DNA from: Xestospongia muta
Taxonomy: Eukaryota; Porifera; Demospongiae; Haplosclerida; Petrosiidae
Reading direction: 5' to 3'
Length of the DNA stretch: 64,000 bases
Assembly (NCBI GenBank): GCA_963693285.1
Contig: OY848918.1
Coordinates: forward strand, 15,064,263 to 15,128,262
This document shows positions 2,061 to 36,882 of this stretch, piece by piece. Every line of letters begins with the position of its first letter. Position 1 is the stretch's first letter. The position numbers were made by a program, and so were the translations under genes. The notes under the pieces were generated by a model. It had not been told where the DNA came from. It saw only the letters and a program-made list of their open reading frames with translations, and did no database searches.

Positions 2061-20574
<18,514 letters not shown>

Positions 20575-20763: not shown

Positions 20764-23700
20764 TCATTTGATTGGAATAGACACTGCTAGTAAAATAAAA
20801 GGAATCAATAATATTTTCTTGATTATAAAAATTAATGTTGAAATAATATAAAAACTACTGAATAACACACACTTGTTTCTTATTCGTTCGTTTCTGTAAC
20901 TTATAGTTTGCACGTGCTGCATATAGACTGCTTGTTCAAATACATTGTAAACTCCTTCGTTTAGTTTTGCTGAGCAGTCGACAAATGCATATGCTCCTAG
21001 CTTTTGAGCAAGAGCCTGACCTTCTACTGCGGTGATTTTTCTTGAAATATCAGGATCATTACGGAGATCAGTCTTCATTGCAACTAACACAAACGGTACA
21101 GATGGACAATGAAAATCCATTTCTAGTATCCATTTTTCAGCAACATTACAAAATGAATCTTTGCTATCACATGAAAAACAAATGAGAATTACATCAGTAT
21201 CGGGATATGATAATGGCCTTAGTCGATCATAATCTTCCTGGCCAGCAGTATCCCAAAGAGCTAGTTCACAAGGTGGCAATGATTTTGAAAACCTGAAGTC
21301 TGCTACATAATTCTCAAAAACTGTTGGGATATATGCTTCAGGAAAAACTTCCTTCACAAATCGTATAAGCAAACACGTTTTCCCACATGCTCCATCACCT
21401 ACAACTACAACCTTCATTCTTGAAAAACGAGATGATCTCAATTTTGCTTTCCTCAACTGTTTCAGTTTTTTCGTATGTTCTATTCGTGTATCCAATTTTA
21501 AAGAAACTGATTTTAAAATCTCAGATACCTAAACAGAAGTATTTAAAATGTTATCTGTAATATTAAGACACTTACTAATGGAGGCAGATTTAATGTATTT
21601 TCCTGAGACTGGGTTGTCTCTGTCTGAGGATTTTCAACAACTGTCTTGTTTACATCTGGATCTGCTGTGCATGTTAAATCTTTATTCGTTTCTGTTTTGA
21701 GTTCATGTTCCACAACCAATAAAGACTACATACATTTATTGTATAGTTTGTGCTGATAATAATGTTTGTACCTTTTCATCATCAGTGCTAGCATTGGCCT
21801 CAGTATTGGTATGAGACTCATCCAAATCTTTATCTTCTTGGTCATGCTACAATACACATACATGCTTTGTAAGATTGCTACAATTTAAGTGTTATGTATG
21901 ATTTACTGTAAATTTCACTCCCATTTCTTCAAGTTTCTTAGCAAACTCCTCTTGAAGTTGTTGCTTTTCTTCTTCTTTTACTTTCACAATTCTGTCCTTA
22001 GCTTGACACATTCTTTCCAGACCTTCAACCTCTAACTAAAAACCAATATCATTACATTGAGGTTTTAAAAATTACTTCTTTTATTCTACATTTTTCTTGT
22101 TCCTTTTCAAGGTCTTGTTCTTTTTTCTATGAAAAATAAGATGCTATTATAAATAAAGAAGAAGAAAAGACCAAAGAACCGCATCAATATAAATTCACAA
22201 TGTGTTGTTGTGATTACTTTGCTATCAGAGTAAACTGTTGAGTACCTTGAGGGTCAGCTTTAGTGTTTCTAGCTCAGCTTGTCTTTCCAGTATGAGCTTG
22301 GCTTGTTGCAAATTTTCTCTTTCCTTCAGTTCAGCTACTTTATCCTTTGTTGAGCAAAGAACCTCAAGGTTAGATTTTATATCCTATCAAACATTTAACA
22401 GTCAGCTTTTGTTAATATATTAATGATGTCTTTACTTCTAAATTCTTCAAACTTGATTTCATTATCAGTAATTCATTATCTTTTGCCTGCAAAGAATGCA
22501 TACAGTCAGTAAAGGACAACACCAATAAAGTAATAAATACACTAGGTTTAATGATGCAATTTAGCATTACAAATCTTTACCTACAATTATTATTTTAATG
22601 TACCTCAAGTGTTTGTTGGATAATTAATAACTGATGCTTGTATTCAGTTTCTTTAGCTTCAAGTAGTTTGTCCTTTGTCTGACAGAGATTTTGAAGTTCA
22701 GACACGTTTTTCTATAAAAACAAAACATAAAACAACATGTAAGGTATGTAGAATTATACCTTGAATTCTTGATCAGAATGATCTTGTATCCTTACAGTTT
22801 GGTCTCCTTCTTTCAAAAGTTGTGTACCACTTTCTTCAAAAGGTTGTTGAATTAAGTCAAACCTAAACAAATGTGTATAAGGATTTGGAAATTGATCTTC
22901 TAGATTCTTTAAAGTCTGACTAAGATGTTGTGCAGTTGGCCTTTTATCAGGATCATTGTCAAGACATTCAACAAGGAGTTGTTTGAACTGAGAAAACTGC
23001 AAATCAAGCTTATCAATATAATGACCACGACGTTCAACTTCAGAGCGAGCAATGATAACCTTAGTGTCTGGATTCATAAAAGTAGACCCAGTTGGCAATG
23101 GGAATTCCTGAACCATGGTGTACAAAAGTAAGTGGCCAAATGAAAATATATCAAGTTTTTCATTATATTTTGGTTGAGGATCAAAGGCCTCAGGAGGTAA
23201 GTATACTAAGGTACCTGGGACACATGTCATGGTCTTAGCGAGTTGATCTGGTGAGATGTCAACAATTCGAGAGTTGCCAAAGTCAGCTATCTTAGCTACC
23301 ATTGCTGAAGTGAGTAACACATTGCGAGCAGTTAAATCTCTGTGGATAATTGTTGGAGAGTGACTATGAAGATACGTAAGACCAAGAGATACATCATGTA
23401 AGATGGATCTCTTTATAGGAATTGGTATACTTGAGTACTTCTCAAGTATAGTATCTAGGTTAGTTGGAAGATATTCCATCACAAGAATAGGTAGCTGTGA
23501 TTGTGAGCGAAAACAAATACCCAAAAACTGGACAATGTGGGGATGACGTAGTTGGCTCATCAATTGACACTCTTTTACAAACCTTTCAGTGATGACTTCA
23601 ACTCCTTTATTTGCTGTGTCGATTAGTTCCTTATGAAGAGTTTTCCCAGCACATGTTAATCCTCCGACATCTATCTCTTCAACACTACCATAAGAACCAA

Positions 23701-23776
23701 CACCTAACATTTTGGTGTGATCTGGTAGCTGAAAGTTTCTTAGAACAAACGTACTTAGTTCCGGTGATTCTTCCAT
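20764..23776 (-). CDS. TKL kinase-coiled coil-Rho GTPase-membrane anchor fusion
   Basis: Nine exons (22760-23776, 22604-22711, 22436-22486, 22246-22383, 22076-22126, 21907-22035, 21772-21846, 21576-21725, 20764-21528), all introns phase 0, 827 residues. Residues 1-320 are a protein kinase: glycine loop GVGSYGSV (25-32), Lys45, Glu69, HRDLTARN (Asp147), DFG (Asp165), PPEAF; all catalytic residues are present and the HRDLxARN loop points to the TKL/TK branch. Residues 340-570 are charged, partly coiled coil, with a triplicated LxxLCxTKDK motif. Residues 611-780 are a Rho-type GTPase: [27 protein letters not shown]. The end (about 790-827) is strongly hydrophobic with no CAAX box, so a membrane anchor is likely. 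The chain suggests a kinase and a GTPase switch on one membrane, but substrate and partners are unknown. An internal Met just before the P-loop could allow a GTPase-only product. Confidence 0.85.
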
Positions 23777-24309: not shown

Positions 24310-25545
24310 GGTTAACTAGGGATGCTCTTGGTAACCCCATATACAAGCACTGTAGTCTAATATTGGAGTTACTAATGATTTATATAACAATGTATATGTC
24401 TTATAAAGAAAGCCACCAAATTCTTTAGAATGTGCACAAACTCCTGCCAGAGTTTTCCTGGTTGATCTTGCGGTATGTTCTAAAGTTTGTTTACAGTCCA
24501 AGTATTCATTAAACATATTCCTAAGTATTTATATTCATTACAATAGTCTATGATGGTACCATTACATGAAAAGGGAAAAGATGATCTCGTTCTTCTAGTT
24601 GGTCTAATATGCAGTACTTTAGCTTTATTGATGTACATAGCTAAACGATTCTTGTCACACCAAGTAGCTACTCTACCAAATAAGCTGTTGTAAATCATTT
24701 TCATTATTGGCAAACAGTGCAATATCATCAACATACAGGAGGATACACATAATTATGTCCTCTTCTATATATACTCCCAAATTTAAATTCTTAAACATAG
24801 GGAACCAGGTCATTAATATATAAATTAAAAAGTGCTGGTGACAGGAAGCAACCCTGTTTGACACCCCTATTTACTGTAAACCACTCAGTGACAGTACCAT
24901 TTATTTCTAAACAATAATTAACTCTAGAATATAATGCTTCAAGATTTTCTAACAAATTACCATTAATTCCATAACATAACAACTTATACTAAAGTAAATT
25001 CCTATCTACACTATCAAATGCCTTCTTTAAATCAATAAAACATATAAATGTATCTTTATTGTAAGTTTTCTATTTTGTGTCATTTTGTGACAATTATGAC
25101 CACTTCTAAATCCTAGTTGTTCTTTTACGAGTATTTCATTATCTTCTAGCCAGAAAATTAATAATTTGTTTAATATACTTGTATATGCTTTAAGTAAATT
25201 ACATTGGAGGGCAATTCCCCTATAATTTAGAGAGTCAGTAACGTTGCCTGATTTTGGGACTGGTAATATAATTGCTTTATGCCATAAATTAGGAAAACAA
25301 CTATTTTGGAAACATGTTCTAAAAGGCTGGATAATAAAAGGAATAAGATTAGGATGTTTAAAATGATCTAGGATTGTGCTTTTGTGATTCTAAAAATTCT
25401 TGTCTTTGAGTTGAAAGAAACAGTCTTTTTTACATCTAACTAATTTGTCAAAGTCTTGTTAGAGAGTCAAATAAGATTGCTTAATGCTTACTACTGATTT
25501 GTTCTTTAACCATGCTTTAAGAGCTATTCTACCTCCTGTCTCTTC
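24310..25545 (-). mobile_element. Decayed LINE (non-LTR retrotransposon) reverse transcriptase
   Basis: Pieces of one reverse transcriptase read in order on the minus strand. They are a linker region (25380-25540), NLWHKAIILPVPKSG and GFRSG (25100-25330), FIDLKKAFDSVDRNLL (about 24995-25050), GVKQGCFLSPALFNLYINDL (24820-24880), the catalytic YVDDIALFAN (24709-24738), a thumb region with NKAKVLHI, and an end with ILDYSACIWGYQ. This order is that of LINE ORF2 proteins. Several frameshifts and stop codons break the frame (for example between the GVKQG and YVDD blocks), so the copy is dead. No endonuclease domain, poly-A tail or target duplication was recognised. The clade cannot be assigned by eye. 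Confidence 0.85.
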
Positions 25546-32999: not shown

Positions 33000-35725
33000 T
33001 CATGGCCATCTACTGTGTCATAACATGACTCACCTGTCTACTGTGTCCTAATGTAAAACTACATCTACTGTGTCATAACATAACTCACCTGTCTACTGTG
33101 TCCTAATGTAAAACACCCATCTACTTTGTCATAACGTAACTCACCTGTCTACTGTGTCCTAATGTAAAACTCCCATCAACTGTGTCATAACGTAACTCAC
33201 CTGTCTACTGTGTCCTAATGTAAAGCTCCCATCTTCTGTGTCATAACGTAACTCACCTGTCTACTGTGTCCTAATGTAAAACCTATCTACTCAACTGTGT
33301 CATAACGTAACTCACCTGTCTACTGTGTCCTAATGTAACACTCCCATCTACTGTGTCATAAGGTAACTCACCTGTCTACTGTGTCTTAATGTAAAACTCC
33401 TATCTACTGTGTCATAACGTAACTCACCTGTCTACTGTGTCCTAATGTAAAACTCCCATCTTCTGTGTCATAACATAACTCACCTGTCTACTGTGTCCTA
33501 ATGTAAAACATATCTACTCAACTGTGTCATAACGTAACTCACCTGTCTACTGTGTCCTAATGTAAAACTCCCATCTACTGTGTCCTAATGTAACTCACCT
33601 GTCTACTGTGTCCTAATGTAACACTCCTATCTACTGTGTCAAAATGTAACTCACCTGTCTACTGTGTCCTAATGTAAAACTCCCATCTACTGTGTCATAA
33701 GGTAACTCACCTGTCTACTGTGTCTTAATGTAAAACTCCTATCTACTGTGTCATAACGTAACTCACCTGTCTACTGTGTCCTAATGTAAAACTCCCATCT
33801 ACTGTGTCATAACGTAACTCATCTGTCTACTGTGTCCTAATGTAACACTCCTATCTACTGTGTCATAATGTAACTCACCTGTCTACTGTGTCCTAATGTA
33901 AAACTCCCATCTACTGTGTCATAAGGTAACTCACCTGTCTACTGTGTCTTAATGTAAAACTCCTATCTACTGTGTCATAACATAACTCACCTGTCTACTG
34001 TGTCCTAATGTAAAACTCCCATCTACTGTGTCATAAGGTAACTCATCTGTCTACTATGTCCTAATGTAAAACTCCTATCTACTGTGTCATAACGTAACTC
34101 ACCTGTCTACTGTGTACTAATGTAAAACTCCCATCTACTGTGTCATAAGGTAACTCATCTGTCTACTATGTCCTAATGTAAAACTCCTATCTACTGTGTC
34201 ATAATGTAACTCACCTGTCTACTGTGTCCTAATGTAAAACTCCCATCACTGTGTCATAACGTAATTCACCTGTCTACTGTGTCCTAATGTAAAACCTATC
34301 TACTCAACTGTGTCATAACGTAACTCACCTGTCTACTGTGTCCTAATGTAAAACTCCCATCTACTGTGTCATAACGTAACTCACCTGTCTACTGTGTACT
34401 AATGTAAAACTCCCATCTACTGTGTCATAACGTAACTCACCTGTCTACTGTGTCCTAATGTACTCAACTGTGTCATAACGTAACTCACTTGTCTGCTGTG
34501 TCCTAATGTAACACTCCCATCTACTGTGTCATAACGTAACTCACCTGTCTACTGTGTCCTAATGTAAAACTCCCATCTTCTGTGTCATAACGTAACTCAC
34601 CTGTCTACTGTGTCCTAATGTACTCAACTGTGTCATAACGTAACTCACCTGTCTACTGTGTCCTAGTGTAACACTCCCCATCTTCTGTGTCATAACGTAA
34701 CTCACCTGTCTACTGTGTCCTAATGTAAAACCCATCTACTCAACTGTGTCATAACATAACTCACCTAATGTAACACTCCCATCTACTGTGTCCTAATGTA
34801 ACACTCCCATCTACTGTGTCATAACGTAACTCACTTGTCTACTATGTCCTAATGTAAAACTCCCATCTATTGTGTCATAACGTAACTCAACTGTCTACTG
34901 TGTCCTAATGTAACACTCCCATCTACTGTGTCATAACGTAACTCACTTGTCTACTATGTCCTAATGTAAAACTCCCACCTATTGTGTCATAACGTAACTC
35001 AACTGTCTACTGTGTCCTAATGTAAAACTCCCATTTTCTGTGTCATAACGTAACTCACCTGTCTACTGTGTCCTAATGTAAAACTCCCATTTTCTGTGTC
35101 ATAACGTAACTCACCTGTCTACTGTGTCCTAATGTAAAACTCCCATTTTCTGTGTCATAACATAACTCACCCGTCTACTGTGTCCTAATATAAAACTGCT
35201 ATCTACTGTGTCATAACATAACTCACCTGTCTACTGTGTCCTAATGTAAAACTCCCATTTTCTGTGTCATAACGTAACTCACCTGTCTACTGTGTCCTAA
35301 TGTAAAACTGCTATCTACTGTGTCATAACGTAACTCACCTGTCTACTGTGTCCTATTGTAACTGTGCCATCTACTCTGTCATAACGTAATTGTCTTAACT
35401 ACTCTGTTTTAATACAATTGTCCCATTTACTGTGTCCTAATATAATTCTCCCATCTACTGTGTCTTATTGTAATTGTTCTGTATCCTGTAACCTGATATA
35501 ATTCTCCCATTGATATGTCATAATGTAACTCATTTGTGTACTGTGTCCTAATTTATCTGTCTCAACTACTGTGTTCTAATACAATTGTCCCATCAACTGT
35601 GTCCTAATATAATTCTCCCATCTACTGTGTCCTGTTGTAATTGTTCTGTATCTTGTAACCTGATTAATTCTCCCATTGATGTGTCATAATGCAACTCGTC
35701 TGTCTACTGTGTCCTAATGTAACAG
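33000..35725 (+). repeat. 28-bp satellite organised as 56-bp dimers
   Basis: Alternating monomers CTACTGTGTCATAACGTAAC+TCACCTGT and CTACTGTGTCCTAATGTAAA+ACTCCCAT, each 28 bp, repeat about 40 times as 56-bp dimers. Order breaks down after about 35345 into diverged units. The monomer is clearly related to that of the 30.2-31.3 kb array. Confidence 0.93.
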
Positions 35726-35737
35726 TCCCAGAGATTT

Positions 35738-36752
35738 TTATTTTGAGCATGATAGGCCATTAAAAATATTTAAGCATATTAGGCCATTTAAAATATATTT
35801 TGAGCATATTAGACCATTAAAAATATATTTTGAGCATAATAGGCCATTAAAAATATTTTTTGAGCATATTAGGCCATTAAAAATATATTTTGAGCATATT
35901 AGACCATTAAAAATATATTTTGAGCATAATAGGCCATTAAAAATATTTTTTGAGCATATTAGGTCATTAAAAATATATTTTGAGCATATTAGACCATTAA
36001 AAATATATTTTGAGCATAATAGGCCATTAAAAATATATTTTGAGCATAATAGGCCATTAAAAATATTTTTTGAGCATAATAGGCTATTAAAAATATATTT
36101 TGAGCATATTAGGCCATTAAAAATATATTTTGAGCATATTAGACCATTAAAAATATATTTTGAGCATAATAGGCCATTAAAAATATTTTTTGAGCATATT
36201 AGGCCATTAAAAATATATTTTGAGCATATTAGACCATTAAAAATATATTTTGAGCATAATAGGCCATTAAAAATATATTTTGAGCATAATAGGCCATTAA
36301 AAATATTTTTTGAGCATAATAGGCCATTAAAAATATTTTTTGAGCATAATAGGCCATTAAAAATATTTTTTGAGCATATTAGGCCATTAAAAATATATTT
36401 TGAGCATATTAGACCATTAAAAATATATTTTGAGCATAATAGGCCATTAAAAATATATTTTGAGCATAATAGGCCATTAAAAATATTTTTTGAGCATAAT
36501 AGGCCATTAAAAATATTTTTTGAGCATAATAGGCCATTAAAAATATTTTTTGAGCATATTAGGCCATTAAAAATATATTTTGAGCATATTAGACCATTAA
36601 AAATATATTTTGAGCATAATAGGCCATTAAAAATATATTTTGAGCATAATAGGCCATTAAAAATATTTTTTGAGCATAATAGGCCATTAAAAATATATTT
36701 TGAGCATAATAGGCCATTAAAAATATATTTTGAGCATATTAGGCCATTAAAA
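35738..36752 (+). repeat. 30-bp satellite with 180-bp higher-order repeat
   Basis: About 33 units of AAATATATTTTGAGCATATT + AGGCCATTAA in perfect 30-bp register. Variants (ATATT or ATTTT, CATATT or CATAAT, GGCC or GACC) recur in a fixed order of six. The blocks 36181-36360, 36361-36540 and 36541-36720 are identical or nearly so. Confidence 0.95.
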
Positions 36753-36882
36753 AAGAATGAGAGGTGGTAGGGTGGGGGGACGGCAATACAGTACCACCTC
36801 CACGTGGTGTCGTCTGGAGCATCATAGATGTGCTAACTATGATGTACTAAGAGTACTGTTGATCCTCGGCTCATTCTTTTTT
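36749..36882. other. Foldback element with multi-hairpin potential
   Basis: A perfect 13-bp terminal inverted repeat (AAAAAAGAATGAG at 36749-36761, CTCATTCTTTTTT at 36870-36882) encloses 108 bp. Inside are AGGTGGTA/TACCACCT (36762-36769 with 36792-36799), CATCATAG/CTATGATG (36820-36827 with 36837-36844) and TACT/AGTA (36845-36848 with 36852-36855). Together these give a cloverleaf-like fold. It abuts the 30-bp satellite and differs in composition from it. It may be a short foldback transposon (no clear target duplication) or a structured RNA. The T6 run could stop RNA polymerase III, but no A/B box was found. Confidence 0.5.

Follow-up and report, generated by a model that had tools for sequence, protein, structure and literature searches.

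In the sponge Xestospongia muta, a single minus-strand gene probably codes for a chain made up of a protein kinase (TKL/TK-like), a long charged region, a linker and a Rho-type GTPase of divergent sequence with a basic tail and a CaaX end, the Rho part most likely having been added to a member of a kinase family. It was found in the window, i.e. the whole stretch of 64,000 nt analyzed here, and its most likely interpretation is a new domain combination in a module-swapping sponge kinase family.

The chain runs from 23776 to 20764 on the minus strand and consists of nine exons with 827 codons (Table 1). All eight introns (40-119 nt) have GT-AG borders and the lengths of all nine exons are multiples of three, which bears out the claim of the initial annotation that nine exons are joined with all junctions in phase. 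Eight of the nine exons are present in the automatic gene model, and adding the 17-codon exon 3 yields exactly 827 codons. Counting in the translation placed the kinase residues K45, E69, HRD147 and DFG165 exactly where they had been assigned, and the domain search with the 827-residue product, proposed earlier as a check, gave a Pfam kinase match at residues 22-287 (E 2e-40) and a Ras match at residues 612-774 (E 4.5e-45), the latter overlapped by lower-scoring Roc and Arf models. Among the NCBIfam models, a general GTPase model scores above its cut-off, and the kinase models score below theirs. Taken as a whole, the initial observation stands in its gene model and both domains, but not in its hydrophobic end (see below).

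Table 1. Features of the kinase and Rho-type GTPase locus (positions in the window).
Feature	Position	Strand	Remark
Exon 1, protein kinase domain (TKL/TK-like)	22760..23776	-	ATG at 23776, 339 codons
Exon 2, charged region, first L-x-x-L-C-x-T-K-D-K unit	22604..22711	-	
Exon 3, small, 17 residues	22436..22486	-	least certain by codon score
Exon 4, charged region, second L-x-x-L-C-x-T-K-D-K unit	22246..22383	-	
Exon 5, charged region	22076..22126	-	
Exon 6, charged region, third L-x-x-L-C-x-T-K-D-K unit	21907..22035	-	
Exon 7, acidic linker	21772..21846	-	
Exon 8, linker	21576..21725	-	
Exon 9, linker (37 codons, 21528-21418), then Rho-type GTPase from M (21417)	20855..21528	-	3' limit from tail common to relatives
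C-terminal tail, basic region and CaaX-type end	20855..20923	-	2 bases out of frame with upstream Rho frame in assembly
TATAT, extra dinucleotide shifting frame	20921..20925	-	TAT implied by relatives' proteins
Out-of-frame continuation, initially annotated as hydrophobic membrane anchor	20764..20922	-	missing from P0210 and P0230

To assess the coding character of the middle exons, a codon model was trained on 35 long open frames from kinase and Ras loci of this genome. Coding sequence averages 0.17 bits/codon in the model, and the 95% level of the background, set on open 43-codon stretches (several of the exons are shorter), is 0.12 bits/codon; the background stretch contains reverse-transcriptase-like fragments. 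Six of the seven middle exons exceed this level, exons 2, 4, 5, 6, 7 and 8 scoring 0.28, 0.28, 0.54, 0.46, 0.43 and 0.18 bits/codon, respectively; exon 3, which is 17 codons long and was scored from a point one codon ahead of its start, lies below it at -0.04. Antisense frames of some exons are above the level too, the highest being that of exon 6 (0.37), and the codon signal may come in part from the amino-acid composition. The joint chance that exons 2-8 and the 37 codons preceding the Rho methionine are all open is about 2e-8 in local sequence, an indicative value calculated for the exons as found; for the 37 codons taken separately the chance is 9%.

The best matches of the kinase domain among solved structures are TNNI3K, a tyrosine kinase entry, CTR1 and RIPK2 (E ~1e-23; best 60 of 2484 PDB matches, which also include TYK2 and roco4), indicating the TKL/TK branch. 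Judging from its motifs, the kinase is predicted to be active. It belongs to a family expanded in sponges and is followed by a charged region. There are 121 matches to it in the genome; the best-scoring match to the kinase exon other than itself is 43% identical, and none of the matches listed exceeds 52%. In 17 of the 29 best loci fetched (L010-L038, several of them in tandem clusters and alike) the kinase continues in frame into a charged stretch, loosely defined as at least 60 residues with at least 36% E/K/R/Q/D. A separate locus (L069 3-2245, G000:C10) contains, by eye, a kinase, a charged region and a Kelch-like frame, with PP2C-like exons downstream. The metagenomic protein P0129, encoded on a 3.6-kb contig, matches the product at 42% identity over 498 aa (54% over residues 6-310 for the kinase) and has repeated L-x-x-L-C-x-T-K-D-K-type units too; hence the kinase and the charged region form one unit.

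Kinase relatives were sought among the 7990 candidates sharing most words, with protein lengths of about 455-1447 residues, so that the lone kinase exon of a counterpart could not show up. Of these relatives, 34 were counted (P0121-P0145, P0147, P0148, P0150-P0153, P0159, P0165 and P0173; the weaker P0178-P0194 and the fungal P0146 were excluded), Geodia barretti being among the named sources. An extra module is present in 18 of the 34: a second kinase in nine, an AIG1-type GTPase in one, and what we take to be Kelch, NHL and CHAT modules in six, one and one, respectively. None of the 34 has a Ras/Rho domain; most kinase relatives resemble predictions from unspliced DNA, and therefore modules in later exons would go unseen. 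The relative P0173 resembles the product in that a kinase (35% identical) and, after it, a GTPase share one frame, but this GTPase is AIG1 and not Ras/Rho. The end of P0173, in the same frame as its kinase and AIG1-type GTPase, is glycine-rich and possibly membrane-inserting. As the kinase and charged region recur and the modules of the relatives vary, the chain in the window most likely represents one further module swap.

The charged region, described initially as a coiled coil, comprises 159 residues, of which 51% are E/K/R/Q/D and none is proline. This composition agrees with the description, but the heptad periodicity is not significant, being reached by 70 of 300 shuffles; the region is probably helical and self-associating. 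All six matches of the middle region in the genome fall in its own locus.

The GTPase is closest to Rho proteins, with Rho1 and RhoA/B/C (223-192 bits) ahead of Rac1 (178 bits) among the best 60 of 799 PDB matches. The G1-G3 motifs and the switch regions are present, and in its P-loop, switch I and switch II the domain is as complete as it had initially looked, but it deviates in two other features. Firstly, G4 reads MKTD, without N or T before KxD; the relatives P0210 and P0230 (see below) have MKTD and LKAD, respectively. At that G4 site, C is reported for Rnd and RhoBTB in a published survey (PMC7600811). Secondly, the Rho insert, for which 10-15 residues were expected, is short: the segment comprises 12 residues, compared with 20 in 87 of the 106 measured matches, and the insert is 8 residues shorter than that of P0265. 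A segment of 12 residues also occurs in P0210 and four further matches. The same survey, published in 2020, reports the insert, the basic site and the CaaX for all the homologues of the human Rho subfamily that it examined in basal metazoans (PMC7600811). Since both the insert and G4 deviate, the domain is named Rho-type here and is not filed in the Rho subfamily.

In a tree of 33 rows, the window sequence groups with P0210 and P0230 in a separate clade (100/99) on a long branch. This clade lies on the Rho side (97/98), not with Rac/Cdc42, its position as the sister of Rho proper being weak (88/71), and is separate from the two Rho genes of the genome on C15. The latter two have an apparent intron after DTAG (by eye); the fused Rho has none, which would fit an origin as an intronless copy. 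The best-scoring match to the Rho exon after itself is 44% identical (C14), pieces of the C15 genes are 60-69% identical, and a few short pieces elsewhere in the genome reach up to 71% over 41 residues.

The two close relatives found with the Rho exon, P0210 and P0230 (among the best 120 of 7984 matches), also bear on the C-terminus. Up to the point of divergence, their identity with the window is 90% and 87%, respectively, and both terminate in a basic tail and CVIQ (VCVIQ), which is a CaaX-type end; the end of P0230 is VYAACANYKLRKQTNKKRRVCVIQ. The window encodes a 22-residue tail and a stop at 20923-20855. The basic region and CaaX, in frame in P0210 and P0230, are encoded out of frame here, with 20 of 22 residues of the tail of P0210 retained. 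The change of frame falls at GTCTATATGCAGC; the proteins of the relatives imply GTC-TAT-GCA at this place. As the displaced tail is so well preserved, the shift reflects either a mistake in the assembly or an allele of very recent origin. By this comparison, the initially annotated hydrophobic membrane anchor down to 20764 is an out-of-frame reading past the extra dinucleotide.

It is very unlikely that the hydrophobic end is real, i.e. that the Rho part in this lineage swapped its CaaX for a tail anchor, though such a swap is compatible with the fusion: the shifted reading is hydrophobic and open down to 20764, but the P0210 tail residues held in the other frame mean that any loss would be very recent. 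A decaying pseudogene, also compatible with a past fusion, is a highly improbable explanation as well. Its sign would be the single frameshift close to the 3' end, but the remainder is open across nine exons, the kinase motifs and splice sites are intact, and the Rho exon shares 87-90% identity with the two relatives. In view of the corrected C-terminus, experiments should use a CaaX-ended protein rather than a transmembrane tail.

The kinase and the Rho-type GTPase quite probably belong to one gene, and a shared transcript is likely. The exon 8/9 junction has a gtaagt donor and a gtttag acceptor and is in phase, and the Rho exon extends 37 codons upstream of its first methionine. In the window, as in P0210 and P0230, this methionine is 6 residues ahead of GDG. 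The motif is present in 117 of the 120 matches listed, and all but these two relatives show a distance of 8 (one match) or at least 9 (114 matches), so that a Rho standing on its own would have an unusual start here. In an alternative, unlikely arrangement there would be two adjacent genes: one for the kinase, stopping just past exon 8 (read to 21543), and one without introns for the divergent Rho-type GTPase, with the methionine at 21417 as its start. Several features speak against a single gene. Poly(A)-like signals precede the Rho exon (AATAAA at 21740 in intron 7 and at 21686 in exon 8, ATTAAA at 21594 in exon 8), and neither AATAAA nor ATTAAA occurs between the Rho stop and 20506; P0210 and P0230 have a methionine at the same Rho start; the 37-codon linker ahead of it is neutral in codon score (-0.008); and the counted kinase relatives have no Ras/Rho domain. 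On the other hand, only about 125 nt separate the stop of such a kinase gene from the Rho methionine, which leaves scant space for a 3' end, a promoter and a leader, and both the in-phase splice signals and the closeness of the start to the P-loop speak for one gene.

Among the matched proteins, no relative spanning the kinase to the Rho was found, P0129 lying on its 3.6-kb contig and P0210 and P0230 being single predictions on contigs of 25.7 kb and 2.3 kb, respectively. Scans of genome contigs and viral contigs with P0210, the Rho alignment and the kinase exon yielded one locus only, a bacterial kinase (31%). On the evidence of this genome, the covalent kinase-Rho chain that was proposed initially is the better supported of the gene models.

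Comparison with known systems shows partial likenesses. ROCK, which acts in Rho signalling and binds a separate Rho, has a kinase (of the AGC type) followed by a long helical region, as does the window model. It is not among the best 60 of 2484 PDB matches of the kinase, and its PH and Rho-binding regions have no Pfam match in the product. The combination of a kinase with a Rho-type domain in one predicted chain was found almost nowhere else in the searches made, and no description of it was found in the literature, going by titles and abstract openings. The initial statement that no family with this order has been described holds as far as searched, with the exception of two unverified fungal gene models with a kinase and then Rho, P0076 and P0146, both from Ceratobasidium. 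P0076 is the only kinase carrier among the best 120 of 600 suitable-length proteins matching the Rho exon, and P0146 came from the search for kinase relatives (120 of 130 matches listed). Pfam finds a kinase and a Rho in each, and the two domains follow in the same order within one predicted chain, but the kinases are 23% and 25% identical to that of the window and the Rho domains group with fungal Rho1 rows (modest support). These two may be merged gene models.

By eye, the only other kinase/Ras pair within about 3 kb among the matches listed (150 of 479, 119 of 529 and 126 of 1305 candidates scored, with part of the 164 matches of one search listed) is C8:6583720/6586608. It was rejected as a fusion, appearing by eye to consist of an SH2-tyrosine kinase and, after it, separate Rab-like genes. 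The locus L073 331-7485 (G000:C8) contains, also by eye, an SH2-tyrosine kinase, Rab-like pieces and a 727-codon ROCO-like frame in a row.

ROCO proteins had been set apart initially by their opposite domain order. This is true of LRRK and other ROCO kinases, which combine a GTPase and a kinase in a single chain with Roc-COR preceding the kinase, but not of the DAPK1 ROCO group, where the kinase precedes Roc-COR (PMC6337361). No COR domain after the GTPase was found in the product with five Pfam families at E up to 0.001. The closest known order is that of DAPK1 (kinase before Roc), together with the two unverified fungal models. DAPK1 likewise has the kinase ahead of a Ras-like GTPase in a single chain (PMC6337361), but it carries Roc-COR and a death domain, in contrast to the Rho-type domain of the window, whose relatives are CaaX-ended. 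GTP on the Roc of DAPK1 is reported to lower kinase activity (PMC6337361), i.e. such coupling exists in a kinase-first chain. RhoBTB is similar in having a Rho domain within a multidomain protein; in it, BTB domains follow the Rho and CaaX is lacking (PMC7600811), unlike the window, where the Rho-type domain is last and the relatives are CaaX-ended. BTB domains have no Pfam match in the product.

The chain most likely originated when a Rho coding sequence was joined to the 3' end of a member of the sponge-expanded kinase family. Its most likely working mode, as we interpret the domain layout, would be recruitment with GTP-controlled docking; in this scheme we infer a single transcript, kinase activity, prenylation and coupling. 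Prenylation would put the chain at membranes, where the Rho-type module and the lipid would hold the kinase. The Rho-type module would be loaded by GEFs, and its GTP/GDP state would control docking to Rho regulators and effectors; the effectors, or the Rho-type module itself, would position or release the kinase. Thereby, GEF and GAP signals would switch the place of action of the kinase and perhaps its activity, and the charged region may permit association between chains. More tentatively, and as a possibility we would not rate as the probable one, the protein could be a conserved poriferan kinase gated in cis by an in-chain prenylated Rho-type switch, a Rho-class counterpart of the coupling in DAPK1 and LRRK that arose by independent module swapping.

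Should the chain prove real, it would lock together a Rho-type switch and a kinase, normally separate partners, and provide a natural test of cis gating. It would also suggest that members of one expanded sponge kinase family swap modules with each other, among them a second kinase, Kelch, NHL, AIG1-type GTPase and Rho; this has implications for the way in which signalling diversity arose in early animals.

As for the neighbourhood, a convergent gene on the plus strand (17971-20574) encodes a spectrin repeat and a C-terminal part that looks PH-like by eye; it stops at a distance of about 280 nt from the Rho stop as corrected here. Reverse-transcriptase-like fragments were noted by eye on the minus strand (24316-25389), directly upstream of the kinase gene, and the two pieces scanned gave no match in Pfam. 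Further away, at 35718-36832, there is a long tandem repeat open on both strands, with units like EHNRPLKIYF.
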